64,000 bases of DNA from Desulforhabdus amnigena (lineage in GTDB: Bacteria > Desulfobacterota > Syntrophobacteria > Syntrophobacterales > Syntrophobacteraceae), in the NCBI RefSeq assembly GCF_027925305.1, contig NZ_BSDR01000001.1, positions 1,267,001 to 1,331,000 on the forward strand, given 5' to 3'. Both the position numbers and the translations under genes were made by a program. The notes beneath the pieces were generated by a model that was given only the letters and a program-made list of their open reading frames with translations, searched no databases and was not told the origin of the DNA. Positions 2,778-35,314 of the stretch are shown here, in pieces (the stretch's first letter is position 1; each line of letters begins with the position of its first letter).

Positions 2778-2853
2778 CGCTTTGACCTCTCTTTCCGGAA
2801 GCGCCGGATGGCGGCATACAAGGGTTGCTTCGAATTTGAAGATGTTTTCCGTT

Positions 2854-4694: not shown

Positions 4695-4818
4695 GTCATG
4701 TTTCCTCTTGAGGGGTTTCCTCTCCGCTTCGGCAGAGAATTCAATTGTTCCTTTTCGCAAAAGGCACTCTTATCGAACCTCTGCCCCTCACAGAACCCAT
4801 TGTTTCCAAAAGATTCAT

Positions 4819-6195: not shown

Positions 6196-6217
6196 AAGCC
6201 TGATCCTTCCTCTTATT

Positions 6218-7879: not shown

Positions 7880-7910
7880 TGCGTCTTCTCCCCTATCAAA
7901 ATTGCCGGCT

Positions 7911-8644: not shown

Positions 8645-8685
8645 GGGAGTCTCCTATCTATTCTCTCGTTGGTCTCTTACTGTTC

Positions 8686-9528
<843 letters not shown>

Positions 9529-9900: not shown

Positions 9901-11031
9901 GTGAAAATCATGCTTTACAGCCAGCACGTTCTGGGAATCGGACATTTTTTCAGAAGCATGGAGGTCGCAAAGGCTTTGCATGAACATGAGGTTCTCTTCG
10001 TCGAGGGGGGAGATCCCTTGCCCGGCTTTGTTCCTCCTCGCCACGTAAAAAGGTTCATCCTTCCGCCCATCATGATGGACGCAGACTTCAAGACTCTTGA
10101 AATTCATGAAGGAACCCTTGAAGAAATCAAAACCGGGCGCAAGCAGATGCTCATGGATGCCTTCACAGAATTTTCCCCCGACGTGCTCGTTACCGAACTT
10201 TTCCCTTTTGGACGCAAACAGTTCCGATTTGAATTGATTCCGCTGCTGGATAAAATCCACGAACAGAGACCGTCCACAAGGGTTGTATGCAGTTTGCGTG
10301 ACATCCTGGTGGAAAAGAAAGATCAGGCGGCGTATGAAAAAGGGGTTCTCGATATCCTGAACCGCTACTTCGATCTGCTTTTGGTGCATTCCGATCCCGA
10401 ACTCATCCCCCTGGAAGAGAGTTTCGAACGCATCGGTGAAATTAAAATTCCAATCTTCTACACTGGATTCATCGTGAGGGATGCTCCTGTCCAGGTGGAA
10501 GCACACAGGGGAAAAATCATTGTGGTGAGCAGTGGGGGAGGAAGAGTGGGAATCGAACTTCTCAGTTCGGCCATAAAAGCGGTTCAAATGCTGGCCGATG
10601 AAGACCTTCACCTCAGAGTTTTTGTAGGGCCTTTCATGGAAGCCTCGGATCGAAAGAATTTGACCGATCTGGCGGCGGGCGATGCCGACATTCAATTGCT
10701 CCCTTTTTCTTTGGACTTCCTGTCGGAATTGGCCCATGCGGACCTTTCCATCAGCATGGCAGGCTACAACACCTGCATGGATATTCTCAGCACCGGAGTC
10801 CGGGCTCTGGTCTACCCCTTTCCGCAAAACCGTGAACAAGCCCTGCGCGCACAAAAACTGGAGAAGCTGGGGCAACTCAAAGTCATACCATCCTTGGCCG
10901 TGCAACCGCTCGCTCAATGTATCCTTTCAGAATTGCGGGCGAAGTATTCAACACGCAGAGGACGCCTGAACCTTTCCGGCAAAACGAACACGGCTGTATT
11001 CATCGATAGATATTGTCGAAACCAGAGTTAA
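9901..11031 (+). CDS. MurG-like predicted glycosyltransferase
   Basis: A 376-aa two-domain GT-B-type protein resembling the predicted glycosyltransferases of COG4671. The N-terminal domain starts KIMLYSQHVLGIGHFFRS, where GIGHFFRS corresponds to the Gly-rich acceptor loop. The C-terminal domain contains IIVVSSGGGRVG and SMAGYNTCMDIL followed by PFPQNREQALRAQKL, the usual nucleotide-sugar binding region of GT28/MurG relatives. The first possible start is GTG at 9901, with ATG at 9910 in frame; neither has a strong ribosome site. It stands alone, divergent from the nif operon. The sugar and acceptor are unknown. Confidence 0.75.
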   Translation: MKIMLYSQHVLGIGHFFRSMEVAKALHEHEVLFVEGGDPLPGFVPPRHVKRFILPPIMMDADFKTLEIHEGTLEEIKTGRKQMLMDAFTEFSPDVLVTELFPFGRKQFRFELIPLLDKIHEQRPSTRVVCSLRDILVEKKDQAAYEKGVLDILNRYFDLLLVHSDPELIPLEESFERIGEIKIPIFYTGFIVRDAPVQVEAHRGKIIVVSSGGGRVGIELLSSAIKAVQMLADEDLHLRVFVGPFMEASDRKNLTDLAAGDADIQLLPFSLDFLSELAHADLSISMAGYNTCMDILSTGVRALVYPFPQNREQALRAQKLEKLGQLKVIPSLAVQPLAQCILSELRAKYSTRRGRLNLSGKTNTAVFIDRYCRNQS

Positions 11032-11734: not shown

Positions 11735-14700
11735 ATGATCCTGAAAGGAAAGCTTTTTGCCGAGTCCCCAATCTACAGAGGGAATGCGAGAAAAACTCTT
11801 TTTACACGAGATGGAGACGGGACCCAACGGCTGGTGTCTCTGGCCGGTGAGATAGAAGGAACCGCCGAAGCTCTCATGGATGCATTCATCGGCAGATCGC
11901 GCAGCGGGAAAAATACAGGGCTGCTCAATCAACTGTGGTTCAGGCTGTATGGCTCATCGATACCTGAAGGATTGATTACTAAAGTTCATTGTAGCCTTCA
12001 GGAGAAAAGCTACTCCAGAGATCACCTCTTCGACATACGCATGGGTATCAAGTTGAACGAGGATCGATGGGCGGCCGAAGCCAATGCGAACTACAAAATG
12101 GAAACTCTGTATAAAAACGCGGCTTTCGATTTCGCCATGACGGTGAACGATTCGGTTCTGAAACGGGATGAGAATAGGAGCAGGCTGTTCTTTGTGCTCC
12201 AGGAACTCAAGGAAGGGCGTTTCTGGTTCGGAGCAGGAAAGAGCAAAGGGCTGGGGCGTTGCCGGCTTGAAATGGAGCTGCCCTTCTCGCCTGGTGAATC
12301 CCCGCCCTCTGTTTCTCCCCAGGCAAACCACCTGACGATATCCCTTTCCTTTAAGTTGGAAACTCCAGTCCTGGTTGGATGGCCCTGGGGGAAGATCGAT
12401 CCCTCTAAACCCGCTTTTGCCGCCATTGACGGACGACAGCTCATAGAAGCGATGCGAGATATTCCCCAGCCGATCCGCAAGAGGCTGGAGACAACCATAG
12501 GCGGGCCTGTTCTCAGCCCGGAGAACTGGAAAAAGAAGTTCAGCGAGTTTTTTCCAAGAATCCTGGCTGTTTGGCTGATGGAGCAATCGAGCAGGGAAGA
12601 AGAAACCTGGTTTTTGCCCTCCGCAGCCGTGGAAAAATTGGGAAAAGGAAAATACGCCTTGTCCCAAAAGCTGATGGAGCGGATACTGCCTTTGGCGGAC
12701 CGCCATTTCCAGAGCAAGGAAGCAGTGGAGGCGGCCGTCAAGCAAGAGCTAGGAGCCAAGGCCAACATGGCCAAACGCGTACTCGATGTCCTTGCTCATG
12801 AGCGCAAAAAAGGCAAACGGTTCGATTCTGAAGCATGGTCCCAAATAGCTGAGGGACTGGGTTTTGACAGAGCATCAGGGGATCGTCTTGCAGGCGCTAT
12901 TCAGGATGAAACGGCTCTTGCATCCATTTTGTCCCAGGAGTGTGCCAAAATCCTTCCAGGGTTCTTCCAGCAGGTGGATCAACAGATACGGTTGATTCAA
13001 AGCGATAGCTGGATCGATGAAGAGATTGCCGTCCGGGAAGAGCACCTTCACATCAAGAACATGCTCAGAGAGGGAAAAATCGAGGAGTGGCAATGGCTAA
13101 GCCCGGACTATACCCCTCAAGGTATCCGCTCTTCGACGTGGAAGGAATTCCTCGAATCCCACCAGCGCGTGCAATTTCGCCATATGCTCAATTCCAAAAA
13201 TTTGAACAAGAGCATTATCAACGATAAGAACCTGATTGCACTCCTCGAAGGCTACCGCGATCATACCCGCCAGGAACTCTCTCAGCCCTACAACACCGAC
13301 TTCAGGTCCGGAGGAGTATCCAACCGTGAAATCTCCAGGAAATACGGTAAACCCTATGACACGGTTTTTATGAGGATGCTCTCCTGGGCTCCGTCCGCCC
13401 AGGAACAGAGTATGTGGGAGATCTACATTCCTGGGAGTACCGTCAAAGGCGCCTTCAGGAAACGTGCATCCCAACTGCTGAAGACCCTGCGGGGGGACTC
13501 GGCTGGAACGACATCCATTTTAAATCGGCTGTTTGGAGAGCAGGGGCAAAGAGGGTTGGTCTATTTTTCCGATGCGTATCTCACAGATGCACTCGTTCCT
13601 GGCCGTTCGTGGTGCTCCATGGATGGCGTGAAAATGGATCCCGCAACGGGCGGTCCTACCGAAGAAGCCAAAGCGGATTATCTTTTCGCCTTCGGAAAAG
13701 ACCTCTCGTTCAATCTTCGGTTGGATATTCAGAATCTGAGCGAGCAGGACATGGAGGCATTTTCCATCTTGACTCATTTGCTCGAGGACTTCCGGAAGGG
13801 CGATATCCCATTGGGCGGAGAAAAAACATGCGGCTTTGGCTGGGTCAAAGGCACAATCAGGAATATTCACTGGATTACAGGAGCACCGCCCCAGGAAGAC
13901 TCCGTAGGAAAAAAGTTATTCGGGAAGCAAACTCACGCTCGCGACGGAATATGGTACAGCCTCAATCTCAAGGATGAAGCCGCAAAAGAGGCATTGCACA
14001 TTGCCCCTCTCGCTCCGAAAGGGAAGAAGGACGTTCAGCCTCCCCCGAGATCGAAACAGGGCTTCATTTCTCATAGCGCATTCGGTGGTTATTGCGGTGT
14101 TCTTTCCATACAAGGGGAGGTCCTGACTCCTCTCAGCATCAAGGAAAGCGGAGAGCCGTCCTTTGTGCACGTTCCGGATGATCCCCTCGAGGGCGTCATC
14201 AATGGCTGGGAGCCTTTTTCCATGTCCCCCCCGGAAGCATCCCTCAGGGCCCCCTCCAGGCTCTACGCCCTGCCGAGCAAGAGCATCAGGGGAATGATTC
14301 GACACATCTACACCATTGCAAGCGATTCGAGCAAGGCCAGCCACGACATCAGTCGGCTCAATCCTACGGATAGCCTGTTTGGCTGGGTAGGAAGCGGCCC
14401 GAACCAGGCCATCATGGCAAGGCTCTCCTTCGATTTCGCTCTGTTCAAGAAAGCGGAAACCGCCTGGTTCAAGGTGCCGTACCCTTACGGAATGTGGCAT
14501 TATGTCGATGGCCAATGGAAAAAGATTCCCAAGCAGCAGGCATCGGTTCTGCATATCGCCGGAAGCTGGAGGATCTTTCCTCACGCGCCCCTCGCACCCT
14601 GTGTGATAAAACTGGATGATTTCAAGCCGGATACTCCAAGAGCCGACTACATCAAGGCCATTCTACCCGGTGGGCTGTGCCGCTTTACCCTCCGTTTCTG

Positions 14701-14980
14701 GAATCTGGAAAAAGAGGAGCTTCAAAGGCTGCTCTGGTGCATAGCATTGGAACAGGGCCTTGCCCACAAAATGGGAAAGGGCCGCTATCTCGGGTTTGGC
14801 AGTCTGCGCTTGAAGCTCCTGCCAGAGAGCTTTCTTACGGATTGGGCAGATCGGTATTCAGGAAAGGGAAAGAGGGATCAAGCCGGGCAGTTACCCATAA
14901 GCCTCGAAGAATGGATCAATCCTAAAGTGATTCACCATCACTCCGAACTGCGGAAGGCGTTAGATGCTCAACGGATTTGA
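11735..14980 (+). CDS. multi-RAMP fusion protein, type III CRISPR effector-like (Cas7-like x3 or more)
   Basis: A 1081-aa protein built from repeated RAMP/Cas7-type units. Unit 1 (about 1-185) ends in a Gly-rich loop FGAGKSKGLGRCRLEME (165-181). A long, mostly helical stretch (about 200-540) follows. Unit 2 has the Cas7 motif IPGSTVKGAFRKR (565-577) and ends LGGEKTCGFGWVKG (693-706). Unit 3 has LPSKSIRGMIRHIY (846-859) and ends KMGKGRYLGFGSLRLK (1012-1027). These are the PGSxxKG and C-terminal Gly-rich signatures of Csm/Cmr Cas7 subunits. A perfect AAAGGAG precedes the ATG. It overlaps the next gene by 17 bases and heads a three-gene operon with a Cas6-like gene. It is shorter than known Cas7-11/gRAMP effectors. 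Type III-like RNA binding or cleavage is inferred; the catalytic Asp residues cannot be assigned from sequence alone. Confidence 0.8.
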   Translation: MILKGKLFAESPIYRGNARKTLFTRDGDGTQRLVSLAGEIEGTAEALMDAFIGRSRSGKNTGLLNQLWFRLYGSSIPEGLITKVHCSLQEKSYSRDHLFDIRMGIKLNEDRWAAEANANYKMETLYKNAAFDFAMTVNDSVLKRDENRSRLFFVLQELKEGRFWFGAGKSKGLGRCRLEMELPFSPGESPPSVSPQANHLTISLSFKLETPVLVGWPWGKIDPSKPAFAAIDGRQLIEAMRDIPQPIRKRLETTIGGPVLSPENWKKKFSEFFPRILAVWLMEQSSREEETWFLPSAAVEKLGKGKYALSQKLMERILPLADRHFQSKEAVEAAVKQELGAKANMAKRVLDVLAHERKKGKRFDSEAWSQIAEGLGFDRASGDRLAGAIQDETALASILSQECAKILPGFFQQVDQQIRLIQSDSWIDEEIAVREEHLHIKNMLREGKIEEWQWLSPDYTPQGIRSSTWKEFLESHQRVQFRHMLNSKNLNKSIINDKNLIALLEGYRDHTRQELSQPYNTDFRSGGVSNREISRKYGKPYDTVFMRMLSWAPSAQEQSMWEIYIPGSTVKGAFRKRASQLLKTLRGDSAGTTSILNRLFGEQGQRGLVYFSDAYLTDALVPGRSWCSMDGVKMDPATGGPTEEAKADYLFAFGKDLSFNLRLDIQNLSEQDMEAFSILTHLLEDFRKGDIPLGGEKTCGFGWVKGTIRNIHWITGAPPQEDSVGKKLFGKQTHARDGIWYSLNLKDEAAKEALHIAPLAPKGKKDVQPPPRSKQGFISHSAFGGYCGVLSIQGEVLTPLSIKESGEPSFVHVPDDPLEGVINGWEPFSMSPPEASLRAPSRLYALPSKSIRGMIRHIYTIASDSSKASHDISRLNPTDSLFGWVGSGPNQAIMARLSFDFALFKKAETAWFKVPYPYGMWHYVDGQWKKIPKQQASVLHIAGSWRIFPHAPLAPCVIKLDDFKPDTPRADYIKAILPGGLCRFTLRFWNLEKEELQRLLWCIALEQGLAHKMGKGRYLGFGSLRLKLLPESFLTDWADRYSGKGKRDQAGQLPISLEEWINPKVIHHHSELRKALDAQRI

Positions 14981-15848
14981 CTGGTTGCGCCGCAGCAGGA
15001 CTGGTGCTGAACTTTTGGCCACCTTGAGATACCTTTCCGAAAATCCTGATTTTCCATTGACCCGCACGGAAATAGGGGCTCCTCACTCCGCAACGGAGGG
15101 ACCCTGCCAGCGGTGCTGGATCTATCCCCGCATAGATGCCGGGGAGCCTTATTGTAAGGATTGCAGCGAAATCCTTCAGCGAGTCCATGGCCTGTCCACA
15201 GCATCCCGTCATGCGGCAATTCTCTGGGGATTCTTCAATCAATTGCCCACAGAAATACTTCAATGGGAAGGTAAAAACCGAAACAAGCATCTGCTCGGCT
15301 CCTATATCCATGACGCCAACCATTTTCTTATTGTGATGGATCGCCGGGAATTGAGACCCTGGCTTCAGGATCTCACCATTTACTACGGATTCGATCTTCG
15401 TGGAATTTTACAGATATTTCCGACCACCGGAGCGGGAACGAGGACCTGTATGGGAGATATTCTGTGCAGGGCCGTCCACCGGGATCTTTACCTGCCCATG
15501 GGGCAGATGCACATTCGTTTTTACTCGGCTCCCTATCAACTGCTCAACCCTCGCCTGCGCGATCTGAAGGGAATGCTGACCTTTGATCTCTCGGATTTCT
15601 TGAAGCTGCTGGAAATGGCGGAAATATTCCGTGCCTTGCTCCGTCCGGAAGAACAACAGGAATTCCGTGACTTGCTGAGCATTCGAGATAAGCAAGAATC
15701 CCAGTTTTACTGGGGAAGATTTTTGGGAAGGTTGGAACAGCGAGCCAGGGACATGTTGACGGCATGGAAAATGAGACAATGGCCAAAGAACCGGATCAAA
15801 GTATTCTATGAGCTTCTCGACTACGTACAACTCATTCAAGCAGATTAA
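14964..15848 (+). CDS. zinc-ribbon protein of the RAMP operon, unknown function
   Basis: A 294-aa protein I do not recognise. Cysteines C48, C51, C64 and C67 (CQRCWIY then YCKDC) form a zinc ribbon close in style to the one inserted in the palm region of Cas10 proteins. A mixed alpha/beta part follows (about 95-190), then a helical C-terminal third with many Arg/Lys (RFLGRLEQRARDMLTAWKMR). There is no HD motif and no GGDD cyclase motif. It overlaps the RAMP fusion gene by 17 bases and the Cas6-like gene by 41 bases, so all three are probably translated together. It could be a stripped-down Cas10-like large subunit or a Cas11-like partner; both are guesses. Confidence 0.6.
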   Translation: MLNGFDWLRRSRTGAELLATLRYLSENPDFPLTRTEIGAPHSATEGPCQRCWIYPRIDAGEPYCKDCSEILQRVHGLSTASRHAAILWGFFNQLPTEILQWEGKNRNKHLLGSYIHDANHFLIVMDRRELRPWLQDLTIYYGFDLRGILQIFPTTGAGTRTCMGDILCRAVHRDLYLPMGQMHIRFYSAPYQLLNPRLRDLKGMLTFDLSDFLKLLEMAEIFRALLRPEEQQEFRDLLSIRDKQESQFYWGRFLGRLEQRARDMLTAWKMRQWPKNRIKVFYELLDYVQLIQAD

Positions 15849-16845
15849 ACTGATTCGTTATCTCGTAACATGGCGGGTCAACAGCTCTCTGGTAACGCTG
15901 CCGGAGTGCTTTGCCGTCGAGTTGTCTCATGTTATTGGTACGATCATCTCCAACCGCCTTCCCAGCCGGGAAGCTGCTCGATGGCAAAAGGCCTTATCCT
16001 CGTTGAATAAATATTTCGATGCACATCCCGTGAAAGGCGAAAAACCGCTCCAATCAACGGTTTTCCCTGATGTATCATGGCCCATTGATGCCGTGCTCTT
16101 TGAGTATCCCGGAAAAACGACTTATGGATTTGGAGAGCTGATTTTCTGGGAATTGAAACTTTTGGGGGATGCCGCGGATCACGGCTTTTTTTTGGAAACG
16201 ATCCTTCCGGCAATGGAAGAAGCTGGCTACACTTCGGATGAAAGGTGGAACCGACCAAACAGGATCTGGGGAAGATTCGACATTCATGCAGTCTACGCAG
16301 CTCGAGGATCATGCTGGGATCCCATAGTGAGTGACGGGCGACTGGACCTCCGACCCCAGCCAAGCGCGTCTCAATGGGCTGAAGGGTTGACGTTTGGCTC
16401 TCACGTTGAGAGTGCTTTCAGACAACTGATATGGCTCACACCCTTTGAACTCGAAGGCATTGCCAAGGAGAAGGAACCAGGCCATGCCGATGATCAGGGA
16501 GATATTCCAGAGGGCCGGAGCCCCGTCATGAAAGCTATTTTGGAAGCACTGGCATCACGTTTGAGTTCGTTGCTCCAGGGGAGACGCAAAACAGCCGGTT
16601 ATCCACAAGATATTCTCGATGATGAATGGAGGCTCATTCTACAAGAAGCCTTTGAACAGGTAATTCAAACGCCTTTGCTTTTCAAGGACCTAAAAAACGT
16701 CTCGAAGGGATGTCCAGGGCAGTGGACAGGAAAACATGTCTTTGGCCCTCTTCCAAAAGAGATCATCCCATGCCTTGAATTGGCATCCATACTTCATATC
16801 GGCAAATACACCCATTTCGGATGTGGGACATTCACATTGGCGTAA
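15808..16845 (+). CDS. Cas6-like RAMP endoribonuclease (crRNA-processing type)
   Basis: A 345-aa protein with the architecture of the Cas6 C-terminal family (PF10040). It ends in the diagnostic Gly-rich loop HIGKYTHFGCGTFTLA (330-345), compare the usual HiGKgtsFGlGrY ending. The middle shows the family pattern FGELIFWELKLLGDAADH followed by TILPAMEEAG, and WLTPFEL lies near residue 210. Cas6 cuts CRISPR transcripts into guide RNAs. The start at 15808 lies inside the preceding gene and has no clear ribosome site, so translation is probably coupled. It is the last gene of the operon; 58 bases separate it from a convergent regulator gene, with no array between. Cas6 identity is fairly sure, its RNA substrate is unknown. 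Confidence 0.8.
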   Translation: MSFSTTYNSFKQIKLIRYLVTWRVNSSLVTLPECFAVELSHVIGTIISNRLPSREAARWQKALSSLNKYFDAHPVKGEKPLQSTVFPDVSWPIDAVLFEYPGKTTYGFGELIFWELKLLGDAADHGFFLETILPAMEEAGYTSDERWNRPNRIWGRFDIHAVYAARGSCWDPIVSDGRLDLRPQPSASQWAEGLTFGSHVESAFRQLIWLTPFELEGIAKEKEPGHADDQGDIPEGRSPVMKAILEALASRLSSLLQGRRKTAGYPQDILDDEWRLILQEAFEQVIQTPLLFKDLKNVSKGCPGQWTGKHVFGPLPKEIIPCLELASILHIGKYTHFGCGTFTLA

Positions 16846-23387: not shown

Positions 23388-24044
23388 GTGCCAAAGTCCG
23401 TACAAAGACAAGTCGTCCTGCCCTGGACTCAGGTGATAAAGATCTCTTTCAATTCCATACGGGTACGTTTCTTTCGAACCCTCATCACTACCCTCACCCT
23501 CACCCTTGCCGTTGCCTTTGTCACCTATATACGGTCGGGCTACGAGATTCTCAACTCTATTTGGCCCCATGCTGACGGCTCTCTTCAGGAAAGCATTCTT
23601 GCCAGTGGCTATGAACTCACGGGTGGTCGCTTCGGCACCAGCCCCAAAGACACATGGCTCGCCATTCTCTCACTCATGGTCTGCGTCGTGGGAATCGTCA
23701 ATGCGCAGCTCATGGCCGTTACCGAGCGGTTTCGAGAAATCGGCACATTCAAGTGCCTCGGTGCCCTGGACAGTTTCGTCGTCCGCATTTTTGTGTTCGA
23801 GGCGATTTACCAGGGCCTTCTTGGAGGTTTTTCCGGAAGCATACTGGGTATCATCGTAGCCACCGTGTCCATCTCGTTTAAGGCGGGATGGGCGGCCTTT
23901 CGCTGGTGGCCTTTTGGGGCAATGTTAAAAACTATCGGCTGGGGGGTGATTCTCGCAGATTTCCTCTCTTTACTTGGAGTCATCTATCCCGCTCTCGTGG
24001 CTGCAAGAATGCAACCCGCCGAGGCTTTGAGAACCGAGCAATAA
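23388..24044 (+). CDS. ABC transporter permease, FtsX/MacB type
   Basis: A compact 218-aa FtsX-family permease. One membrane segment lies near residues 28-46, and a cluster of three in the C-terminal half contains the FtsX motif VTERFREIGTFKCLGA, ending YPALVAARMQPAEALR. It lacks the large extracytoplasmic domain of MacB. The start is GTG at 23388 with AAGGG nine bases upstream. It precedes the ABC ATPase gene by about 300 bases, separated by a palindromic repeat. Together with the ATPase and the peptidase-permease fusion it would form an ABC export or mechanotransmission complex. Confidence 0.85.
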   Translation: MPKSVQRQVVLPWTQVIKISFNSIRVRFFRTLITTLTLTLAVAFVTYIRSGYEILNSIWPHADGSLQESILASGYELTGGRFGTSPKDTWLAILSLMVCVVGIVNAQLMAVTERFREIGTFKCLGALDSFVVRIFVFEAIYQGLLGGFSGSILGIIVATVSISFKAGWAAFRWWPFGAMLKTIGWGVILADFLSLLGVIYPALVAARMQPAEALRTEQ

Positions 24045-24200: not shown

Positions 24201-24284
24201 AATTTCATTTGAACCACGGAGACACAGAGGGCACAGGGAAAGACTTTCAAATGAAATCTTTGTGTTCTCCGTGTCTCCGTGGTT
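24201..24284. repeat. palindromic CACGGAGACAC repeat
   Basis: Two nested inverted repeats: ATTTCATTTGAA (24201-24212) with TTCAAATGAAAT, and AACCACGGAGACACAGAG with CTCCGTGTCTCCGTGGTT. The element is about 84 bases. It is non-coding, and a related copy lies at 50146-50217. Because it overlaps the first possible start of the ABC ATPase frame, it argues for the later start at 24339. Confidence 0.75.
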
Positions 24285-24338
24285 AATGTGACAATGCCGC
24301 ATGAAGCGTCATTCCTAAAGGTTCCCAGAGGTCAAAGT

Positions 24339-25073
24339 ATGGAAAGGGAAATTGTACATAATGTGGTTAGACTTTCCGATGTGACGAAGGTCTTCAGGAT
24401 GGGAAACATCCAGGTCGAGGCATTGAAAGGAATCAATTTTGCCATCAAGGCCGGTGAATACCTTTCCATCATGGGTCCTTCCGGCTCCGGGAAATCCACT
24501 CTTTTCAACATGATCGGAGCTCTCGACAAACCGACCACCGGCCGTGTCTTTATCGACGAGGTGGATGTGGCTCAACTGGACGCTTACGAACTGGCGTGGC
24601 TTCGGTGCCGGAAGATCGGATATATTTTTCAGACGTTCAATCTCATTCAGGTGATGACAGCTATCGAGAACGTAACATTGCCCATGATTTTTGCAGGCAT
24701 GAACCGGGACGAATACCTCGAAAAGGGAATGAATCTCCTGAAAATGGTGGGGCTCGCTGAACGCTACAATCACAAGCCGTCCGAACTTTCCGGGGGACAA
24801 CAGCAACGGGTGGCCGTAGCCCGGGCTCTAGCCAATGACCCCGCAATTATCCTGGCAGATGAACCCACCGGAAACCTCGATCTCACAACCGGCGAAGAAA
24901 TCATCACCCTCCTGAAACAGCTTTCGACCGAGCGAAACGTGACCATCATCTCCGCTACACATGATATCAAGATGTTGAATGTTTCCGATAGGGTCGTATG
25001 GATTCGTGACGGGCAGATCGACCGGGTCGAAGAACGTGAGAAATTGAAGATCTCCGTGGGGGAGGTGGCTTGA
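24339..25073 (+). CDS. ABC transporter ATP-binding protein, MacB/LolD type
   Basis: A 244-aa ATPase with all ABC motifs: Walker [11 protein letters not shown]-loop FQTFNLIQ, signature [15 protein letters not shown], Walker [12 protein letters not shown] and the switch His in SATHD. The start at 24339 has AGAGG six bases upstream; an earlier ATG at 24279 lies inside a repeat. It powers the FtsX-type permeases on either side: the downstream fusion gene starts within its last codons. Such ATPases usually drive lipoprotein export, peptide export or periplasmic enzyme control rather than import. Confidence 0.93.
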
Positions 25074-28000
25074 CAATCATGCACAGGAAATGGAAAAAAT
25101 TTCACAGCTCGCCCCTTGTGCTGGTTTACGCGCTTCTTTTTCTGACGATGGGAGCAGCATCGGACGCCCGCGCCCGGCAGGTTATGGATGATCTCTCTTT
25201 TTTCGCAAGCATCACCGACCGTTCGACGGGAAGTCCCGGCAGTGAGGAGGCTGCAGATTATATTTTGAAGTCTTTCGAAGAAGCCGGACTTTCGAATGTG
25301 GGAGTCCAGAAGTTTCTGACTCCCATTGCCGAAGTCGTTTCTGCATCCCTGGAAGTCTCGGGCGAAAAAGTGCAGGTCTATCCTTGGGGACCCAACATGG
25401 CCTACCTTCCCAGGACTCAGGAAGAGGGCCTGCGGGGCCCTCTCGTGTACGTTGGAGAAGGAAACCTCAACGATCTCAACGGAAAAGAAATTAAGGGCAG
25501 CATCGTGCTTATGGATATGGCTTCCTACGGCAACTGGATCAACGCCTCCATGCTCGGCGCTCACGCCCTCATCTATCTCGGTGAAGAAAATGCGAACGCC
25601 GGAGAGTATCGTGAGAAAAACACTCCCACTCCCATTGCATTTCCCCGGTATTGGGTTTCTCATGAAACAGCAGAAAAGCTCAAAGCCCTTGCCATAGAAA
25701 AGAAAGTTGAAGCCGTCGTCAAGTCCGAAGCCCGGTGGGAAAACAAGATGGTTCGCAATTGCTATGGCTTTGTTCCGGGAAAAGACCCCAAGCTCAGCAA
25801 AGAATTGATCGTTTTGGACGCTTTTTACGATGCATCCTCGCCGATCCTCGGCCTTGCGCCTGGAGCCGATGAAGCCACCTCCATCGCCGTCCTGCTGACT
25901 CTGGCGCAGCATCTGGCCCAAAATCCGCCCGATCGGACAGTTCTTTTCCTCGCCACTACCGGAAACGGGCAAAGTCTCGCCGGTATGAGGCAGTTCATCT
26001 GGTCCGTTACCACCCGAAAGAAACTTCTGAGAAAGGACAGCAAACAACTGCAGACAAAAAAGAAAGAAGTGGATCAGCAGTTGGACATTTTGCGAAGATC
26101 AGACCCTTTCTCCGTGCAGGAACTTCAGGAACAAGAACTTCTCTGGAATCTTACCCTTGAAAAGGCCAGGGACAAGGCGGATGCTCTCACCAGGGAGGTT
26201 CAATACCGCAAGATGCTTTCTCAGGAGGATGTTCAGGAAGACATAGAAGCGGCGAGAGCATACCGCCGTCTCTCCTGGCTTTCTGAAATGAGTGAAATGA
26301 CGTCGGACCAGCGCATCCTTGCCCTACAACTCGTAAAGGAAGCGGTCCCGGACCTCAAAAAATATCGGAAGGAATTGAAAAACAGACGTGATGTCCTCAA
26401 ATCCACCATCGCTCTCAGGAACATCATAGACGAATATAAGCCCGTTTTCTTTTTAAGCCTCTACCTCTCCTCCCACTCTTCCACCATCGGTCTGGTAGAA
26501 CTGGGGGACACTTACCCTGTTCGAGAAACCGTTCGGAGAATGATGAGGGCAGGCAGGCTCGTCAACCTGTTGAACCTGCTGGGTTCCAGAGTTGCTGAAA
26601 ACACAGGGCTTCCCAACATCATTAGAGATACGACTCGAGGGGGTTCGCCGGAGGGCGGCTTCGGCAAATCTTCTTCCATAAATCATCCCTGTTGCGATGT
26701 GGGAGCGTTGGCCGGTTTGCCCGCTGTTTCCCTCATGACCCTCGACGACTATCGCACATGCTGGACCACCCCTCAGGACACGCTGGACCGGGTCAACAAA
26801 AAAAATGTTGAAATCCTGTCACGTTTTCTGGCTCCCTTGTTCCAGGAACTTCTCTCTTATCCGGGTCTCCATACCATGTCGGAAGAGGGAGTCCGCGGCT
26901 TAGCCAGCCTGGAAGGGCAGGCCAAGTTTATTCGGCAGGGAGAGCTCTTTCCCGACCAGCCCGCACCGGACACCATCATCTCTGTTTTGCAGGGGGATTC
27001 CATTTTCAGGGCCATGGTGTTTCAGGATGGCACTTTCTTTATCCCGGGACTGGCCAACAAACGGGTGTCGCTGGAAAAACTCATTCTCGAACCCTACGGT
27101 CTGGATCCCAAGACGGGTCGGGTCGCCTGGACTGCGGACAAGGCACAGACCGGAAAGATCAATTACCGGATCAAAGTGAAGAGCGACCTGGCGAGCACAT
27201 CTCTGGTCATGTTCCACTGTCTGCAGACGGACGTGGTAGGGGTATTCAATCCCAGAAACCTGGGTTATCTCACCAAAGTTCAGCTCCTGGACGCAGCCAC
27301 TGAGGCCACTCCCCTTCGCTACTGGTATTCCAGAATAGACGGGCGGGACACCAAGGCCATCTCCCTTTTCCTCGAAAAAGGAACACGATTCAAACTCATT
27401 CTGTCCGAATCCCTGCTCAGCAAGGACTTTTTTCTCCTCAACAGCACGGAGGAAAACCCGACGGGAAAGGGTTTCCTCATAGGAAGTCCTCCCATCCTGT
27501 TTTTTCCGCCCTACCAGGTGGCAAGAGATCTGAAACTTCTTTTGGGAGAGCGGCTTGAAAACCTTTTCAAGCACGGAATCACCAATCGATATCTTCAGAC
27601 GCTCTATTCCACATCAGTTCAGCAGTTGGAAGAATCCAAGGCGGATCTTCAGAATACTTCATACGGGCCCCTCTGGCAAAAAGTGCACTCCGCCTGGGCC
27701 AAACTCGATGTCGTCTATGGAGAAATCGAAAGCACCCAAAGGGATGTTCTGACGGGCGTCATGTTTTTCATCGCCCTCTTTGTACCCTTTGCCTATTGCA
27801 TGGAGCGGTATCTTTTTTGCTTCCGCAGCATCTATCAACAAATCATAGCTTTTTTTCTGATTCTCGTAATGACGATCTTCATCATCAGGGCCTTGCATCC
27901 CGCTTTTTATCTTACCTACAGCCCCATGGTGGTCATCATCGCCTTTTTCATCGTGGGTCTTTCCATTTTGGTTTCATGGATCATTTTCATGAGGTTCGAA

Positions 28001-29812
28001 CAGGAAATGGCAAACCAGCATTCTCTCATGGGAGGATCGCACCCTGCGACCCCTCAGGTGAGCAAATGGCAGGCATTTGGAGCGGGGTTTTCCATTGGAG
28101 TCTCCAACCTCAACCGAAGAAAACTTCGAACGGGCCTGACGTGCATTACTCTGATCATCCTGACTTTTACGGTCATGTCCTTTACCAATGTGAAGAGCAT
28201 TCACACGACCACACGCACTCGTATTGCCCCCACAGACCCCTACCGGGGAGTTCTCATCCGCCATCAGTATCGACTCCCCCTCACGCTGCTCACCCTGCAG
28301 GATATGCAGACCAGTTTCGATACAGAGGCGGCGGTGTGGCCCAAAGGATGGATCGAACCTTCCAACAGCTCTGACCGAACCATCGCCCGAATTCAACATT
28401 TGGATGCAAATGCCACGGTCGAGGGAGTACTGGGAGTCGGGCACACTCCACCCAAACCGTTTCAGGATCTTGTGCTTTATGGCCGCTGGTTCATGCCCCG
28501 GGAAACACAGGCGCTTCTAATGTCTCTCACCATAGCCGAAAAGCTGAAGCTCGATCCTCAAAAAGACCTGGATATCGAAATCAGTCTTTTTGGAGATAGA
28601 TTCAGGGTTATTGGTTACTTTGACGGCAATCAACTGGAAGCGCTAAAAGACCTTGACCAAAATCCCATTACGCCGGCATACATGGAAAGGAGCCAGAGCG
28701 AAGAACTCTCCGAGGTGGAAATCGAAGCGATGCAATCGGGAGAAGAAATGCTGCCTCAATCGGAGCGATTCCGATTTGCCAACGCCGACACAACCATCAT
28801 CATCCCCTTTCAGGACTGTATCTATTACGGAGGAACGCTCAGGACCGTTACCATCCTTCCCCATTCCGAAACCAGTCCCACGGATATTGCCGACCAGCTT
28901 TCCTCCTGGCTGACCTTCCCGCTTTTTGTGGGCGACAACGGCGCCTGGTTTCAAAGTGCGAGCAACACTGTGAGATATCAGGGGGTAACCAACCTGTTCG
29001 TACCCATCCTGATTGTCATCTTCATCACCCTCAACACCATGATCGGCCACGTTCACGAGCGGCAGAGGGAAATTTCAACCTATACTTCCGTCGGACTGGC
29101 CCCCACTCATGTGGGATTTCTCTTCATCGTGGAAGCGCTTTCCCTCGCGGTTCTCTCAACCGTAATCGGCTACATCCTCGCGCAGATGAGCGCCAAGTAC
29201 CTCGGCAATACCGCTTTGTTTTCCGCCCTGACCTTCAATTATTCTTCACTTGCAAGCGTGGCATGCATGTTTCTGGTGTTTTCCGTGGTTTTCCTGGCCG
29301 CTCTCTACCCGGCACGAATGGCTGCAGAAATCGCCATGCCCGATGTGGAGCGTTCCTGGTCACTTCCGGAACCCGATGGGGACACCATTGTCATGAATCT
29401 TCCTTTCCTGTTGAAGCATGAGGAAGAAAAAGGGATCATAGGATTTCTCCACGCTTTCTATATCGCCCACGAAGACATCACTCATGGGGTTTTTGCCGTG
29501 GACGAGGTCAGCCTGGACGAAGACGCACCCGTGGTAAGGCCAGGCGAATTGCCGCTCCCGGTTTGCACGATGATTCGAACCAACGTATGGCTGGCTCCTT
29601 TTGATTTCGGCATCAAACAGAGAATTCAGCTCCATTGCTGCCCATCGACGGAAAACCCGGGTTATTTGGAAATTTCCATTCGAATGATTCGCCTTTCGGG
29701 TGAACAATCTGCATGGATGAGGGCCAACAAGAATTTCATCAAGGCCCTTCGAAAACAAATGCTCCTATGGCGTCTCATGGATCAGGAAGCCAAATCGGCC
29801 TTCAGTGCTTAG
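25070..29812 (+). CDS. degenerate M28-type peptidase fused to FtsX-type ABC permease
   Basis: A very large (1580-aa) membrane protein. A signal/anchor segment (about 13-33) leads to an extracytoplasmic M28-like domain with a PA-type insert. The metal-site region reads [11 protein letters not shown] and [16 protein letters not shown], where active M28 enzymes have a His-x-Asp and GAxDDxSG, and the expected Glu-Glu pair is replaced in [14 protein letters not shown], so it is probably not an active peptidase. A coiled-coil insert covers about 325-450. Three or so membrane segments (about 893-980) and a full FtsX module (1025-1430, with [18 protein letters not shown]) follow, then a soluble C-terminal domain. 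TTG at 25070 or ATG at 25079 could start it, overlapping the ATPase gene. Confidence 0.8.
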
Positions 29813-29866: not shown

Positions 29867-31846
29867 ATGCGAGAGTCTCCCGTACGTTTGCCCGCCCTCA
29901 TGGTCGGCCTCGTTCTTGTGTCGCTGGTTTGTGCATTCACGCCCTATAATAACGTCAAGCTTTTGAACAGTCCGCTGGCTGGAGGCCATTTCCCTCTAGC
30001 TTCTTTTGCCTGCATGATCTTGCTTCTGCTGGCCATCAATCCGCTCCTGGGGGTTGTAAAAAAGAGCTGGTCCTTCCATTTTCAAGAACTGCTTCTCATC
30101 TGGTGCATGATCACCACGGCTTCCGGTATTGCCTATACGGGACTCATGCGGACTTTTATCATCAATATCACCACTCCCAAATGGTTCACGACGACATCGG
30201 GCAACGTGGGGGACATTCTCACCCCTCTGGCACCTCCTTCGCTTTTTCCCGCCGATTCAAAGCTGATCGCTACGCTTTACAGCGGAATGGATGGAGCGCT
30301 GGATATGAGTTGGTGGGAAATCCTCTCCCGCATCCCCTGGAATGCATGGGCTCTCCCCATGCTCTGGTGGGGGCTTTTTGTCCTCCTCCTGTATGCCTCC
30401 TTCATTGGAATGGTGGGGCTCTTCTCACACCAATGGATCGAAAACGAAAAAATGAACTTCCCGCTCCTTCGAGTCCTGGAAATGATGGGCGAAACGGTGG
30501 AACGGGGAAGTCTGTGGAAATTTTTTTCCCAGAAACACTTCATCGTTGGATTCAGCATTCCCGTCATCCTGCATCTCTTCAACGGCTTACATACCTATTA
30601 CCCGGAGGTCCCTCAAATACCGACTCTCATACTCGCTCAGCCCTACATCCCCAAGGAAGGGCTCCTTTCAGGATTTTATAAGGCCAAGATTTATATCTAT
30701 CCGGCATTCATCGGTTTTGCCTTCCTCGCCTCCAAGCAGGTCTCCTTCAGTTTCTGGGCATTCTTCATCATGGGGGGATTCTTACCGGGCCTGCTGCAGT
30801 TTATTGGCTGGCGGCTTCCTGCCGCAGCCCTCGGCACCACTTTCGGCCCGGTGCTTTCCCGCGTTGAGGAAATGCAAATGATGGGAGCTTTTGCCGTCTT
30901 CTTTTTCTTCATTGTCTGGCTTGCCAGGGACCATCTTCGAATGGTTTTGCGAGGCATCTTTCAAAAGAGCGATGTTGCCGAAGGGTTTCATGGTTTTCTC
31001 GGCCCACGCCCAGCTTTTTTTCTTTTTATGGGAGGCATCATCGGCCTCATTGCCTGGATGAATTTCTTCGGGATGGACCTTCTGCCTACCATTTTGTTTC
31101 TGGCGGTTTGCTTCATGATCCAGTTGGTGGTCGCAAGACTTGTTTGCCAGGGCGGCCTTCCCTACTTCACTCTGGCTCTGGCTCCCTCCGATGGATTTCT
31201 TGCCTTTTTGAACACCCGTATTCTTTCGCCCCTCACTCTCTACCTCTCCCTCGTGGTCCAAAAGGTCGCCTTTCTGGACATGAGGGAATCCCTTATGCCG
31301 TCTCTTTTCCATTCCTCCAAACTCTCCAATGGAAGCAGCCCCAAAAAACGATTCCTCTGGGGGATTATCTGGTCTATTCTCCTCGGACTCATTATCTCCT
31401 TTGCGGCCATGCTCAGTCTCTACTACAAGTACGGTATCAACACCCTGCCCGACGACTGGGCAGTCGAGACGGCCCGAAGGATCCATGAAAACGCCGCACA
31501 GCTTCTGACTCACCCGGAGGAATACAAGAACTGGAGCATGGTTTTTTGCACGATCGGTGCCGTGGTCATGGCGCTGTTGGTATTTGGATATCATCACTTC
31601 ATATGGTGGCCTCTACACCCCATCGGATATCTCACAACATACAGTTCGGCTATGCAGATTCTCTGGTTTGGTTTTTTCATCGGATGGCTCTGCAACACCC
31701 TGGTTTTGAGATATGGAGGAGTGAGGCATTTCAAAGAAGTGAGAGGTCTTTTTTTCGGGTTGATCGTAGGTGACATGGTTATGGCCGTCATCTGGTTGGT
31801 GGTTGGGTTTTTTGCCTCCATCAGCTATCACGTCCTGCCATTGTAG
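29867..31846 (+). CDS. large polytopic membrane protein, DUF6785/OPT-like
   Basis: A 659-aa protein with about 14 predicted membrane segments. It begins inside with MRESPVRLPALMVGLVLVSL, contains the amphipathic stretch HQWIENEKMNFPLLRVLEMM, and ends SISYHVLPL. I assign it with moderate confidence to the DUF6785/DUF6784 group, which is distantly related to oligopeptide transporters (OPT). GAGGA lies ahead of the ATG. It follows the peptidase-permease gene by 54 bases and precedes a second OPT-like gene, which suggests the two act as a pair. The substrate is unknown. Confidence 0.7.
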   Translation: MRESPVRLPALMVGLVLVSLVCAFTPYNNVKLLNSPLAGGHFPLASFACMILLLLAINPLLGVVKKSWSFHFQELLLIWCMITTASGIAYTGLMRTFIINITTPKWFTTTSGNVGDILTPLAPPSLFPADSKLIATLYSGMDGALDMSWWEILSRIPWNAWALPMLWWGLFVLLLYASFIGMVGLFSHQWIENEKMNFPLLRVLEMMGETVERGSLWKFFSQKHFIVGFSIPVILHLFNGLHTYYPEVPQIPTLILAQPYIPKEGLLSGFYKAKIYIYPAFIGFAFLASKQVSFSFWAFFIMGGFLPGLLQFIGWRLPAAALGTTFGPVLSRVEEMQMMGAFAVFFFFIVWLARDHLRMVLRGIFQKSDVAEGFHGFLGPRPAFFLFMGGIIGLIAWMNFFGMDLLPTILFLAVCFMIQLVVARLVCQGGLPYFTLALAPSDGFLAFLNTRILSPLTLYLSLVVQKVAFLDMRESLMPSLFHSSKLSNGSSPKKRFLWGIIWSILLGLIISFAAMLSLYYKYGINTLPDDWAVETARRIHENAAQLLTHPEEYKNWSMVFCTIGAVVMALLVFGYHHFIWWPLHPIGYLTTYSSAMQILWFGFFIGWLCNTLVLRYGGVRHFKEVRGLFFGLIVGDMVMAVIWLVVGFFASISYHVLPL

Positions 31847-32158: not shown

Positions 32159-34123
32159 ATGTACGAAGATAAAGAACTCAAGGAATATCGAGATCTTTTA
32201 AAATCCCCTGAAAAGTTTGAAGAGGGCTTCGGCTGGAAATCCATCATTGGGGCTCTTTTCATCGGATTTCTGATGATGCCCGGTTCCATGTATCTCGGAC
32301 TGGTGATCGGTACGGGAGTGGGCCCTGCTGCCCGATGGGTCACGATCATTATTTTTGCCGAAATTGCTAAGCGTTCGTACACCCGATTGCGACAGCAGGA
32401 AATATTCGTACTCTATTACATGGCAGGCGCAGCCATGGCTTCACCCTTTTCAGGCCTTCTCTGGAATCAATATCTTGTTCAATCCGAAGCGGCGAGAATG
32501 TTGGGGCTCACCCAGTTCATCCCCACGTGGATCGCTCCTCCTCCCGGCTCCGAAGCCCTTTTGGATCGGACGTTTTTCCACAAAGACTGGATGGTCCCCA
32601 TTCTTCTGATGATAGGATTCGAAATCATCTCGGCTGTGGATCACTTCGGTCTGGGCTATGCGCTTTACAGGCTCACTTCGGATGTGGAAAAACTCCCCTT
32701 TCCCATGGCCCCAGTGGGCGCACTCGGGAACATGGCACTTGCCGAATCGGCGGATCGAGCCGAAACAAGCTGGAAATGGCGTGTTTTTTCCATCGGAGCC
32801 ATGATAGGCCTTGCCTTTGGAACCCTCTATGTGCTTCTTCCCGCAGCATCGGGCGTCATCCTATCGGAACCCATTCATCTTTTTCCCATTCCCTGGATCG
32901 AACTCACTCACGTGACCGAAGGTTTCCTTCCTGCAGTGGCCACTGGAATCCAACTGGACCTTGGCCTTCTTTTCATCGGCATGGTCCTCCCCTTCTGGGC
33001 GGTCATTGGAGGAGGGATCGGGTTTCTTATCACGCTTATAGCCAATCCCATTCTCTATGAGCACGGCATTCTGCACCGCTGGCACAAGGGCATGGGAACC
33101 GTGGATACGGTTTTTGCCAACAACTTCGATTTTTATATGAGTTTTGGCATAGGCCTGGGTCTGGCCATAGCTGCAATCGGTATCTTTCACGTTTTTTTCA
33201 GCTTTCGCCAGAAGCTCCAGGGAACCCTTAAAGAACGTTTCAAAGTGCTCTTTACCCCTCCTCCGGGCCGGGGAGACTTCAGTATCTGGATTGCCATCGG
33301 CATTTATATAGCCTCCACAACAGCCTACATCATTTTCTCCTCATGGCTGGTGCCGGGATTTCCATGGATTTTTCTCGTGGCGTATGGATTCATCTATACT
33401 CCCATCATTTCCTATGTCTCCGCGCGAATGGAAGGCATTGCGGGTCAGTTTGTAAGCCTTCCCATGGTGAGGGAAGCAAGTTTCATCGCAGCTTCAAAAT
33501 TCTTTGGATACACCGGAATAGGAATATGGTATGCCCCGATCCCTTTCCACAATTATGGAAAAGCCACCCAGCGATGGCGAGAAATCGAACTGACCGGCAC
33601 CAGCTTCAGGAGCATCATCAAGGCTGAAATTCTGGTTATCCCGGTAGTGCTCATCGCCAGCCTCCTCTTTTCCCAGTATATCTGGCGCCTGGCCCCCATA
33701 CCTTCCAACCAGTATCCCTATGCGCAGGAACTCTGGCATTTGCAGGCCTTGAATACTTTACTCCTTCAGAGCGCCACCCTGGAGGGAGATTCACCTTTCT
33801 TCCATGCACTCAATATCGACTATGTCGCCCTGGGCATGGGGCTTGGAATCCTCACTTATTGGGCACTGGCAAGCCTGAAGCTTCCCGTCATGCTCATCTA
33901 CGGCGTTACCCGGGGGCTCGGTCAATCCACACCCCACGGCATTTTCCTTGAAATCATCGGGGCATTGCTGGGCCGCTACTATTTCATGAAAAAATATGGA
34001 GTTGCCTGGCGACAATATGCACCGGTCCTCCTGGCCGGCTTTTCATGTGGAATGGGACTCATGGGCATGCTCGCCATGGGGTTCACTCTCATCATGCGTT
34101 CCCTGGGAAGCCTGGCGTATTGA
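32159..34123 (+). CDS. OPT/DUF6785-like polytopic membrane transporter
   Basis: A 654-aa membrane protein with about 14 segments, beginning MYEDKELKEYRDLLKSPEKF. It contains GFEIISAVDHFGLGYALYRL and KLPFPMAPVGALGNMALAES, a short loop pattern resembling the paired protein just upstream (NEKMNFPLLRVLEMMGE), so the two are probably ancient paralogues. The start at 32159 is chosen because the open frame upstream runs through a repeat element and reads as low-complexity sequence. It ends the 10.7-kb plus-strand block that begins with the FtsX permease. Confidence 0.75.
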   Translation: MYEDKELKEYRDLLKSPEKFEEGFGWKSIIGALFIGFLMMPGSMYLGLVIGTGVGPAARWVTIIIFAEIAKRSYTRLRQQEIFVLYYMAGAAMASPFSGLLWNQYLVQSEAARMLGLTQFIPTWIAPPPGSEALLDRTFFHKDWMVPILLMIGFEIISAVDHFGLGYALYRLTSDVEKLPFPMAPVGALGNMALAESADRAETSWKWRVFSIGAMIGLAFGTLYVLLPAASGVILSEPIHLFPIPWIELTHVTEGFLPAVATGIQLDLGLLFIGMVLPFWAVIGGGIGFLITLIANPILYEHGILHRWHKGMGTVDTVFANNFDFYMSFGIGLGLAIAAIGIFHVFFSFRQKLQGTLKERFKVLFTPPPGRGDFSIWIAIGIYIASTTAYIIFSSWLVPGFPWIFLVAYGFIYTPIISYVSARMEGIAGQFVSLPMVREASFIAASKFFGYTGIGIWYAPIPFHNYGKATQRWREIELTGTSFRSIIKAEILVIPVVLIASLLFSQYIWRLAPIPSNQYPYAQELWHLQALNTLLLQSATLEGDSPFFHALNIDYVALGMGLGILTYWALASLKLPVMLIYGVTRGLGQSTPHGIFLEIIGALLGRYYFMKKYGVAWRQYAPVLLAGFSCGMGLMGMLAMGFTLIMRSLGSLAY

Positions 34124-34172: not shown

Positions 34173-34532
34173 TCAATAAAGCCGGCGGAAGTTGTGTTTT
34201 CTTTTGTAGATCATATCGCTGTTCTCTCTGAGCATTCTTTCAAGTTTGCGTTCTTCCGCCGGGGTGAGCAAGCCATCCGATCTCATTCGAGCATATCGGT
34301 TCCGTATCCAGTTCAGGTTATCTTGAACTACATTCGCTTCGGATGGAGTCAAGCTGCCTGAAGCAATGCCCTCGTCGATTCTCCTCTGCTGATTATCGAT
34401 CTGAACCTGAATATTCGAAACATAAGCGGGCGCCGGCCTCTCACGAACTACCGGACCTCTTTCAACCACGGTACATGCCGTAAGACTGAAGAGGGCCAAA
34501 GCCAGTACCGTCACGAATATCTTCAGCGCCAT
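34173..34532 (-). CDS. small lipoprotein with one QQRRID/EKHN repeat module
   Basis: A 119-aa protein with a signal peptide and lipobox LTAC (Cys20). The mature part carries one copy of a roughly 65-residue helical module: DNQQRRIDEGIASGSLTPSE, then a VQDNLNWIR helix, then DMIYKRKHNFRRLY. The neighbouring upstream gene carries two copies of the same module. It is presumably anchored in the outer membrane or inner-membrane surface. The function is unknown. Confidence 0.8.
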   Translation of the reverse strand: MALKIFVTVLALALFSLTACTVVERGPVVRERPAPAYVSNIQVQIDNQQRRIDEGIASGSLTPSEANVVQDNLNWIRNRYARMRSDGLLTPAEERKLERMLRENSDMIYKRKHNFRRLY

Positions 34533-34741
34533 AGGCGTTACTCCTTATGTTCTCATAAGTCATAAAAAAAAGCCTAACCCTGCGATACACCATTTCAAAC
34601 GGATATCAATGATGGACTTATAAAAAGTCGTCACCTCGGTGAAAACCGGGGGGCAAGAGTTTTGTAAGTCACTAAAAACATTGGATTCCAGCTTTCGCCG
34701 GAATGATGAGATAACGCCTTTAGGGGCTTCTTGCGAGACCA

Positions 34742-35314
34742 TCAATAAATGCGCCTGGGAAGATTGTGTTTGTTCTTATAGATCATAGCGTTGTTTTGGT
34801 CGAGCATCCTGTCGAGCCGCTCTCTTTCCTGGAAATTAAGCATTCCGTCACTTCTCAATTTGGAAAACCTCATCTTGATCCAGTTGAGATTATCCTGCAA
34901 CGTGTCGGCCTCACTGCGAGTGAGGCTCCCGGACATAATCCCCTGATCGATCTTCCGTTGCTGATCCTCTATTCTCTTTTGAAATTCGGAATCGTAAAAA
35001 CCGGATATATCGTGTTTCTCCTTATAGATCATCGCACTATTTCGGTCGAGCAAACTATCAAGCTCCGTCCTTTCCCTCGCCCCCAAACGCCCATCAGCTT
35101 TATAACGGGACAATTTCATTTTTATGACATTCAGGTTATCCTGCAGAAGATTTGCCTCTCCGCGAGTCAAACGTCCCGATGCTATTCCCTGATCGATCCT
35201 GCGCTGTTGATCCATAATTTTTTTCTGATAATCATTGTATTGAGCCAATGCGATTCCGCTTCCCAGCAAACAGAAAGCCCCAAAAAACAAAGCTAACAAC
35301 CAGATTCTTCTCAT
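34742..35314 (-). CDS. secreted protein with two QQRRID/EKHN repeat modules
   Basis: A 190-aa protein with a cleavable signal peptide (about 1-25, ending GIALAQ). It contains two tandem modules of about 70 residues. Each starts QQRRIDQGIASGRLTRGEAN or a variant, continues with LQDNLNxIKM and ends with an AMIYKxKH motif. The lipoprotein gene 209 bases downstream has one module, so the pair arose by duplication. No catalytic motif is visible. A structural or calcium/peptidoglycan-binding role is possible, but nothing in the sequence proves it. Confidence 0.8.
   Translation of the reverse strand: MRRIWLLALFFGAFCLLGSGIALAQYNDYQKKIMDQQRRIDQGIASGRLTRGEANLLQDNLNVIKMKLSRYKADGRLGARERTELDSLLDRNSAMIYKEKHDISGFYDSEFQKRIEDQQRKIDQGIMSGSLTRSEADTLQDNLNWIKMRFSKLRSDGMLNFQERERLDRMLDQNNAMIYKNKHNLPRRIY

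Follow-up and report, generated by a model that had tools for sequence, protein, structure and literature searches.

A 64,000-nucleotide stretch of the Desulforhabdus amnigena genome (contig NZ_BSDR01000001.1, positions 1,267,001 to 1,331,000; here called the window) carries on its forward strand a gene, here called P (25070 to 29812), whose 1,580-residue inner-membrane product joins an M28-type peptidase fold that has lost its catalytic residues to an FtsX-type permease. P lies in a conserved five-gene module together with a second, minimal FtsX permease (f), an ATP-binding cassette (ABC) ATPase (A), and two polytopic membrane proteins (D and O), and the module is inherited along with a GT28-type glycosyltransferase, so that the conserved unit is larger than P alone. 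The inheritance of P with these partners suggests an undescribed ATP-driven machine that handles a sugar-containing molecule of the cell envelope. Its substrate is probably a glycan-bearing molecule, since the glycosyltransferase has the same species distribution as the module even where it is encoded elsewhere in the genome.

Domain organization of the fusion protein

The genome of the window is a single contig of 4.54 Mb. The open reading frame (ORF) of P opens with a TTG codon that gives a 4-nucleotide overlap with the stop codon of the ATPase gene; an ATG codon is available three codons downstream. Both parts of the fusion proposed in the initial annotation score above their curated Pfam cutoffs, FtsX at residues 1311 to 1419 (E value of 3.7e-12, 46.8 bits versus a cutoff of 25.5) and Peptidase_M28 at residues 235 to 311 (1.8e-8, 34.8 bits versus 21.3), and strong matches to P occur in 34 of 59 sampled genomes, its own included, with some split over contigs. 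From the ORF, Pfam, structural models, and hydropathy, the protein comprises a likely signal peptide (residues 1 to 36), an M28 fold (38 to 605) that contains a PA insert (~86 to 225) and a helical insert (~317 to 453), a beta domain (610 to 812), helices forming a stalk (813 to 890), three extra transmembrane (TM) segments (893 to 972), TM1 of the FtsX core (1023 to 1041), a MacB-like periplasmic domain (~1052 to 1293), TM2 to TM4 of the core (within 1301 to 1404), and a cytosolic C-terminal domain (~1430 to 1580; window positions ~29357 to 29809). The signal peptide and topology were assigned by eye, and the hydropathy scan contains a signal-like stretch, three segments at 893 to 972, and the four segments of the FtsX core.

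The ectodomain was modeled from an alignment of the window and 73 of 75 eligible loci (L097 and L101 were dropped as truncated, and L027 and L028 failed a length or ambiguity filter). The model spans 851 residues with a pLDDT of 92.3 and matches the Aeromonas aminopeptidase 1amp (Z of 24.3, 2.4 Å over 251 residues) and transferrin receptor 1 (7zqs; Z of 23.8, 6.6 Å over 385 residues); the top Foldseek ranks went to 2ek8 and BSAP (6hc6). These results bear out the view that the sequences defining the M28 fold have been kept. The coiled-coil insert noted at the outset is likewise present in the model as coiled-coil-like helices at model residues 280 to 416, which correspond to residues ~317 to 453 of P.

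For the membrane half, modeled from the window and 73 of 76 eligible loci (L052, L068, and L092 were dropped), the fold matches include HrtBA, MacB, and LolE, with Z of 14 to 15 but a large global root mean square deviation, as well as YbbAP. The periplasmic domain within this half matches that of MacB (3ftj) with a Z of 14.7 and 3.0 Å over 175 residues. Conservation of the three extra TM segments (3.49 bits) matches that of the FtsX core (3.48 and 3.60 bits), and all the TM parts exceed the ectodomain in conservation. A Pfam search with the C-terminal cytosolic domain gave no match, and its fold matches tie among a KA1 domain (4yom; Z of 8.7), the Bet v 1-like Ara h 8 (8.7), and METTL16 (8.5); Foldseek matches of the PYL and PRELID types are weak (E values of 6e-3 and above). 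No function was drawn for this domain because the fold matches are tied and near background and the Foldseek matches are weak.

Loss of the M28 metal and catalytic residues

Six canonical M28 residues were scored, which in the numbering of the Aeromonas aminopeptidase we take to be His-97, Asp-117, Glu-151, Glu-152, Asp-179, and His-256. In profile alignments with 2ek8, BSAP, and L103 (an ordinary M28 protein used as an alignment partner), the canonical M28 residues map to positions 252, 254, 267, 299, 300, 463, and 566 of P. Residue tables for these positions hold 78 rows, the window plus 77 of the 79 loci analyzed (L072 and L096 are absent). The P of the window has lost the equivalents of His-97, Glu-151, Glu-152, Asp-179, and His-256 and keeps one of the six residues, D267; among 77 scorable rows, 74 keep one of the six, 2 keep none, and 1 keeps two, so that a search for homologs with intact residues found no scorable row above two of six. 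Neither a His at 252 or 566 nor a Glu at 299 or 300 is present in any row; of the 78 rows, 66 have Phe at 252, 71 have Ser at 463, and 66 have Gly at 566. Neither P nor any of the homologs scored combines the catalytic Glu with the full set of five metal ligands that an active M28 enzyme has, and, judged by these residues, P is a pseudoenzyme of the M28 fold.

The proposed absence of both the His-x-Asp and the Glu-Glu residues holds except for the Asp of the first pair, which is present as D254 in all 77 scorable rows. A probable bridging Asp, D267, is present in 74 of 77. D267 aligns as the bridging Asp with 2ek8, BSAP, and L103, and a gap falls there in the alignments with 2anp, L104, and L105; D267 may therefore be the neighbor of the bridging Asp, in which case nearly all rows keep none of the six residues. 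Two other assignments, W565 as the equivalent of His-256 and E268 as that of Asp-117, were rejected, as positions 566 and 267 fit better in the alignments with 2ek8, 6hc6, and L103.

Beside the site is a W-x-T-P-x-D motif in which W565, P568, and D570 are present in all 78 rows and T567 in 77 of them. Taken together, the seven site positions, including the retained Asp, average 3.33 bits versus 2.37 for the M28 core (resampling P value of 0.005). Since two Asp residues of the site and the adjacent motif are nearly invariant, the old M28 pocket may have been reused. Of the sensing or substrate-gripping pseudoenzyme first envisaged, the pseudoenzyme part stands by sequence, and the near-invariant parts of the site fit gripping or sensing without showing it.

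Partner genes and conserved gene order

The ATPase gene A (24279 to 25073, forward strand) lies directly upstream of P, as described initially, and its product has intact Walker A, signature, Walker B, and H-loop motifs; judged by homolog lengths, the gene may instead begin with the ATG at position 24339. The gene for f (23388 to 24044, forward) encodes 218 residues with an N-terminal hydrophobic segment, a short extracytoplasmic loop, and a conserved C-terminal FtsX region (Pfam FtsX, 46.9 bits versus the cutoff of 25.5). Against the four TM helices expected, its hydropathy profile shows five peaks, of which two abut. Downstream of P, D (29867 to 31846, forward; 659 residues) is a polytopic membrane protein of Pfam families DUF6785 and DUF6784, and O (32159 to 34123, forward; 654 residues) is a polytopic membrane protein with weak resemblance to the OPT family. 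The start of O was placed at 32159 and not at the listed ORF start of 31874 on the basis of homolog lengths.

Alignments of the partner families were made from subsets of 24 of 47, 21 of 49, and 21 of 51 listed loci, plus the window. O is the most conserved polytopic member, with 24 aligned relatives 70 to 90% identical to the O of the window and a mean column identity of 82% over 25 rows. The O of the window has no Pfam match below an E value of 0.3 and no OPT match at E values up to 1; within its family, OPT was matched in 1 of 25 members (E value of 0.0035), the O of genome G029 reaches 7.9e-4 (18.7 bits, short of the cutoff of 25.8), and a profile comparison between O and OPT aligned 320 columns with an E value of 9e-4 at a probability of only 23%. 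The same OPT set compared with D gave no significant result (E value of 0.11), and D was rejected as OPT-like; the idea that D and O form a single family was also rejected, as their profile comparison was not significant. No solved structure related by sequence to either O or D was found at E values up to 1.

A scan of genome contigs yielded 195 stretches encoding relatives of P, of which the best 80, representing 79 loci, were analyzed. Gene order was counted by tblastn, using only loci with a long enough flank. On this basis f adjoins P in 65 of 66 loci, A in 64 of 66, and D and O each in 51 of 54, and all four partners stand beside P in 44 of the 47 loci with both flanks. D and O are missing beside P at L047, L031, and L041, f and A are missing at L052, and A is missing at L065. 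A count based on ORFs is lower (33 of 46) because antisense or misframed ORFs displaced real genes, and the tblastn count was used.

Distribution and co-inheritance with a glycosyltransferase

The titles of 78 of the 79 loci are deltaproteobacterial or of the Desulfobacterota type, and one says only Proteobacteria; Desulfogranum, Desulfatibacillum, and Solidesulfovibrio are among the genera named, and the nearest named relative among the matches listed is Desulforhabdus sp. TSK (77% identity). A viral origin or spread of P was rejected: a scan of viral contigs returned 13 stretches with the pattern, none of them a relative, and a viral fold library gave weak partial matches only.

The window encodes a GT28-type glycosyltransferase of 376 residues at 9901 to 11031 (forward strand) that is co-inherited with the module. 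Across a sample of 395 genomes of the phylum, one of them that of the window, P, GT28, O, and DUF6785 were each matched in 27 genomes (E values up to 1e-50, 1e-45, 1e-45, and 1e-10, respectively), and the four sets of 27 are identical. These carriers span 12 families, two of which (f1 and f20) also hold genomes with none of the four, and none of 14 control genomes gave a match to DUF6785. The distance between GT28 and P is less than 20 kb in 19 of the 27 genomes; in 3 (G031, G321, and G429) the two genes are on the same contig more than 300 kb apart, and in 5 they are on different contigs, these 5 being drafts in which the two may still be physically linked. That GT28 persists without linkage to P argues for a shared function.

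A similar pattern was seen in the 59-genome sample, where P, DUF6785 (over its cutoff), and O occur in the same 34 genomes and a close GT28 (E value up to 1e-60) is present in 32 of them. The two P genomes missing a close GT28 are drafts, G047, which has a distant match only, and G049. A close GT28 is also present in two genomes without P matches. In one of these, G009, GT28, f, and A stand at a contig end whose last ~40 codons resemble the start of P by eye, a resemblance unscored by tblastn; the other, G053, is a 75%-complete genome with GT28 on a contig of 3.2 kb.

Further glycan genes surround the module in many relatives. In L083, a representative relative, the genes upstream of the module encode four glycosyltransferases (two of GT28 type and two of GT4 type), one protein of the histidine-phosphatase family, and one that is DUF2334/deacetylase-like. 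Among the 44 loci with more than 6.5 kb of upstream sequence, GT28-type genes (either paralog) are present in 30, GT4-type genes in 23, phosphatase-like genes in 19, and deacetylase-like genes in 19, and all four clusters are present in 15. In G429 and G321, where GT28 is far from P, GT4-type genes lie less than 10 kb from GT28 (L114 and L115). GT28 is the only one of these glycan genes found in the window, where RAMP/Cas6 genes and two signaling genes separate it from the module.

Other genes in the window and downstream of related modules

The RAMP/Cas6 genes (11735 to 16845) comprise a 1,081-residue fusion in which at least two regions are RAMP/Cas7-like, followed by a 294-residue protein without a family and a Cas6-like protein. 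PADLOC models matched by the fusion include Cas7_IIId (1.8e-29), Csm3 (2.2e-26), and gRAMP (1.7e-22), and it is possibly a fused type III effector. A nitrogenase-type cluster with four Oxidored_nitro proteins and a NifH-family protein is on the reverse strand at 1407 to 9528. Two small secreted-looking proteins encoded on the reverse strand at 34173 to 35314 contain one and two copies, by eye, of a similar stretch of ~70 to 80 residues. Downstream of the module in relatives (regions L083 18911 to 20192, L088 19240 to 21181, and L069 21922 to 23786) are three further proteins: a conserved one of ~300 residues, present in 26 of 49 loci and without a Pfam match in L083; a small one, present in 19 of 49, that is PqqD-like in L069; and a secreted-looking one of ~200 residues, present in 17 of 49, whose L069 copy gave no Pfam match.

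A proposed machine and its alternatives

The genes of the module may encode an asymmetric Type VII (mechanotransmission) ABC machine in which the pseudo-M28 domain serves as a receptor or gate for a glycan-linked substrate, a reading of the whole to which we give close to an even chance. P has the hallmarks of the type, namely, an FtsX domain, a four-TM core with a modeled periplasmic domain between TM1 and TM2, and a partner ATPase with its motifs. P and f would form an asymmetric permease dimer, f being the likely second half, driven by two copies of A. The pseudo-M28 domain would bind the substrate in the periplasm but leave it uncut. ATP binding and hydrolysis would move this domain by way of the helical stalk, the extra TM helices, and the MacB-like domain, an ATP-driven movement that is plausible, and the substrate would be passed to or from D and O, presumably in a complex with them. 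Candidates for the substrate are a glycolipid, a lipid-linked glycan, or a glycopeptide of the envelope. A broader possibility, which we hold with some doubt, is that the module represents a new class of Type VII machine, combining a fused pseudopeptidase receptor, an asymmetric FtsX dimer, and D and O, that moves or assembles an undescribed glycoconjugate made by a dedicated glycosyltransferase and has a patchy distribution in the Desulfobacterota.

Several observations weigh against the proposal of a receptor or gate for a glycan-linked substrate. The link to GT28 consists of co-inheritance and proximity and does not identify the substrate; 12 of the 44 loci have none of the four upstream glycan clusters, and related genomes are nonindependent samples of co-inheritance. 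The five genes are split in some genomes: D is ~12 kb from P in G031, O and P are on separate contigs in G029, and D and O are on contigs other than that of P in G300 and G339. The model of the membrane half is of moderate quality (pLDDT of 75.8, pTM of 0.43). The OPT resemblance of O would fit peptides equally well, and the five substituted positions of the M28 site, at 3.04 versus 2.37 bits (P value of 0.07), are not significantly conserved over their domain.

The OPT resemblance leads to the main rival, that the pseudo-M28 domain binds a peptide or peptide-like molecule, such as a metallophore, which is moved by O and perhaps D with force from A, f, and P, the glycosyltransferase being linked only indirectly. 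M28 enzymes act on peptide N termini, and this family background, like the weak matches of O, speaks for a peptide; even so, the matches of O stay below the curated cutoff, D has no significant relation to OPT, and the co-inheritance of GT28 is left unexplained, and we consider a peptide substrate unlikely. The absence of significant extra conservation at the substituted positions, together with the average conservation of positions 299 and 300 (57th and 52nd percentiles) and the lower conservation of the ectodomain than of the TM parts, would also suit a pseudo-M28 domain that is a mere ligand-free spacer or scaffold in the periplasm. This idea is improbable in view of D254, W565, T567, P568, and D570, which are invariant or nearly so in or beside the old site, although they are possibly structural.

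The same site could be read in the opposite way, with the domain still a metalloenzyme in most relatives, its site rebuilt from D254, D267, His299, and His465 and lost secondarily in the clade of the window. In favor of this, 46 of 77 scorable rows pair a His at 299 with another at 465, D254 and D267 hardly vary, and an Aeromonas mutant with Glu151 replaced by His (2anp) is described as functional in its title. The window's P has Asn299 and Tyr465, and 31 of the 77 rows are without the His pair; the pair is a hint of alternative metal ligands at most, and on these sequences a rebuilt enzyme would be a long shot. Scarcely better placed is the analogy with which the initial annotation closed, FtsEX-like control of a cell wall hydrolase. 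FtsEX is among the Type VII machines, the fold matches include chains of FtsEX, with or without EnvC (Z of 11.5 to 12.8), and some relatives have deacetylase-like genes close to the module. The curated models are nevertheless far from reached (FtsX_Gneg, 14.6 bits for P and 25.6 for f versus a cutoff of 255; FtsE, 205.3 for A versus 264.85), a scan of flanking genes from representative loci recognized no peptidoglycan hydrolase family, and the partners found are f, D, O, and GT28. Division genes are widespread, whereas the module is present in just 27 of 395 genomes. We found no specific support for the analogy and consider it very unlikely.

The glycan-handling Type VII machine remains the preferred reading. 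In the literature searched (mostly without subscription papers), no description of a fusion of FtsX with an M28 peptidase, of DUF6785, or of DUF6784 was found. The named partners provide a testable system for families without a known function (DUF6785, DUF6784, and the 654-residue O), and P adds an M28 pseudoenzyme that is part of the ABC permease itself. Should the substrate be a glycoconjugate, the module would reveal an envelope pathway common to scattered Desulfobacterota.

Comparison with known systems

As a fold, the ectodomain of P resembles M28 aminopeptidases (1amp from Aeromonas; YwaD/BSAP from Bacillus, 6hc6; 2ek8), the latter two of which share its PA-type insert, and differs from them in that the P of the window lacks the catalytic Glu as well as four of the five metal ligands. 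Transferrin receptor 1 provides a precedent for an M28 and PA fold used as a receptor. It is catalytically inactive, like P as judged by sequence, and unlike P it is a eukaryotic single-pass receptor without an ATPase or permease. The main text of a review of pseudopeptidases (PMC11266112) does not mention M28, transferrin, ABC transporters, or FtsX.

Among ABC systems, the module shares with MacB, LolCDE, and FtsEX an FtsX core, a MacB-like periplasmic domain, and a LolD/MacB-like ATPase; P differs from them in its pseudo-M28 ectodomain, three extra TM segments, and cytosolic C-terminal domain. No NCBIfam model reached its cutoff among the matches listed (for the ATPase, the best 25 of 194), and the LolCDE models fall short as well (lolCE, 45.4 bits for f versus 362.45; LolD, 230.4 for A versus 307.75; LolC, 12.3 for P versus 473). 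In the established mechanism, as set out in one account, Type VII ABC systems couple ATP binding to movement in the periplasm, by which they extract molecules from the membrane or activate periplasmic partners (PMC12646458). The same account describes YbbAP of E. coli as a 10-TM Type VII system partnered with the hydrolase TesA, in which YbbP recruits a separate, active esterase (PMC12646458). YbbAP chains are among the fold matches of the membrane half of P (Z of 12.6 and 11.4), and YbbAP-TesA is like P in having an FtsX-type permease, extra TM helices, and an enzyme-fold domain in the periplasm. In P, by contrast, the enzyme-fold domain is fused to the permease and inactive by sequence, and its neighbors are a minimal FtsX protein and two polytopic proteins.

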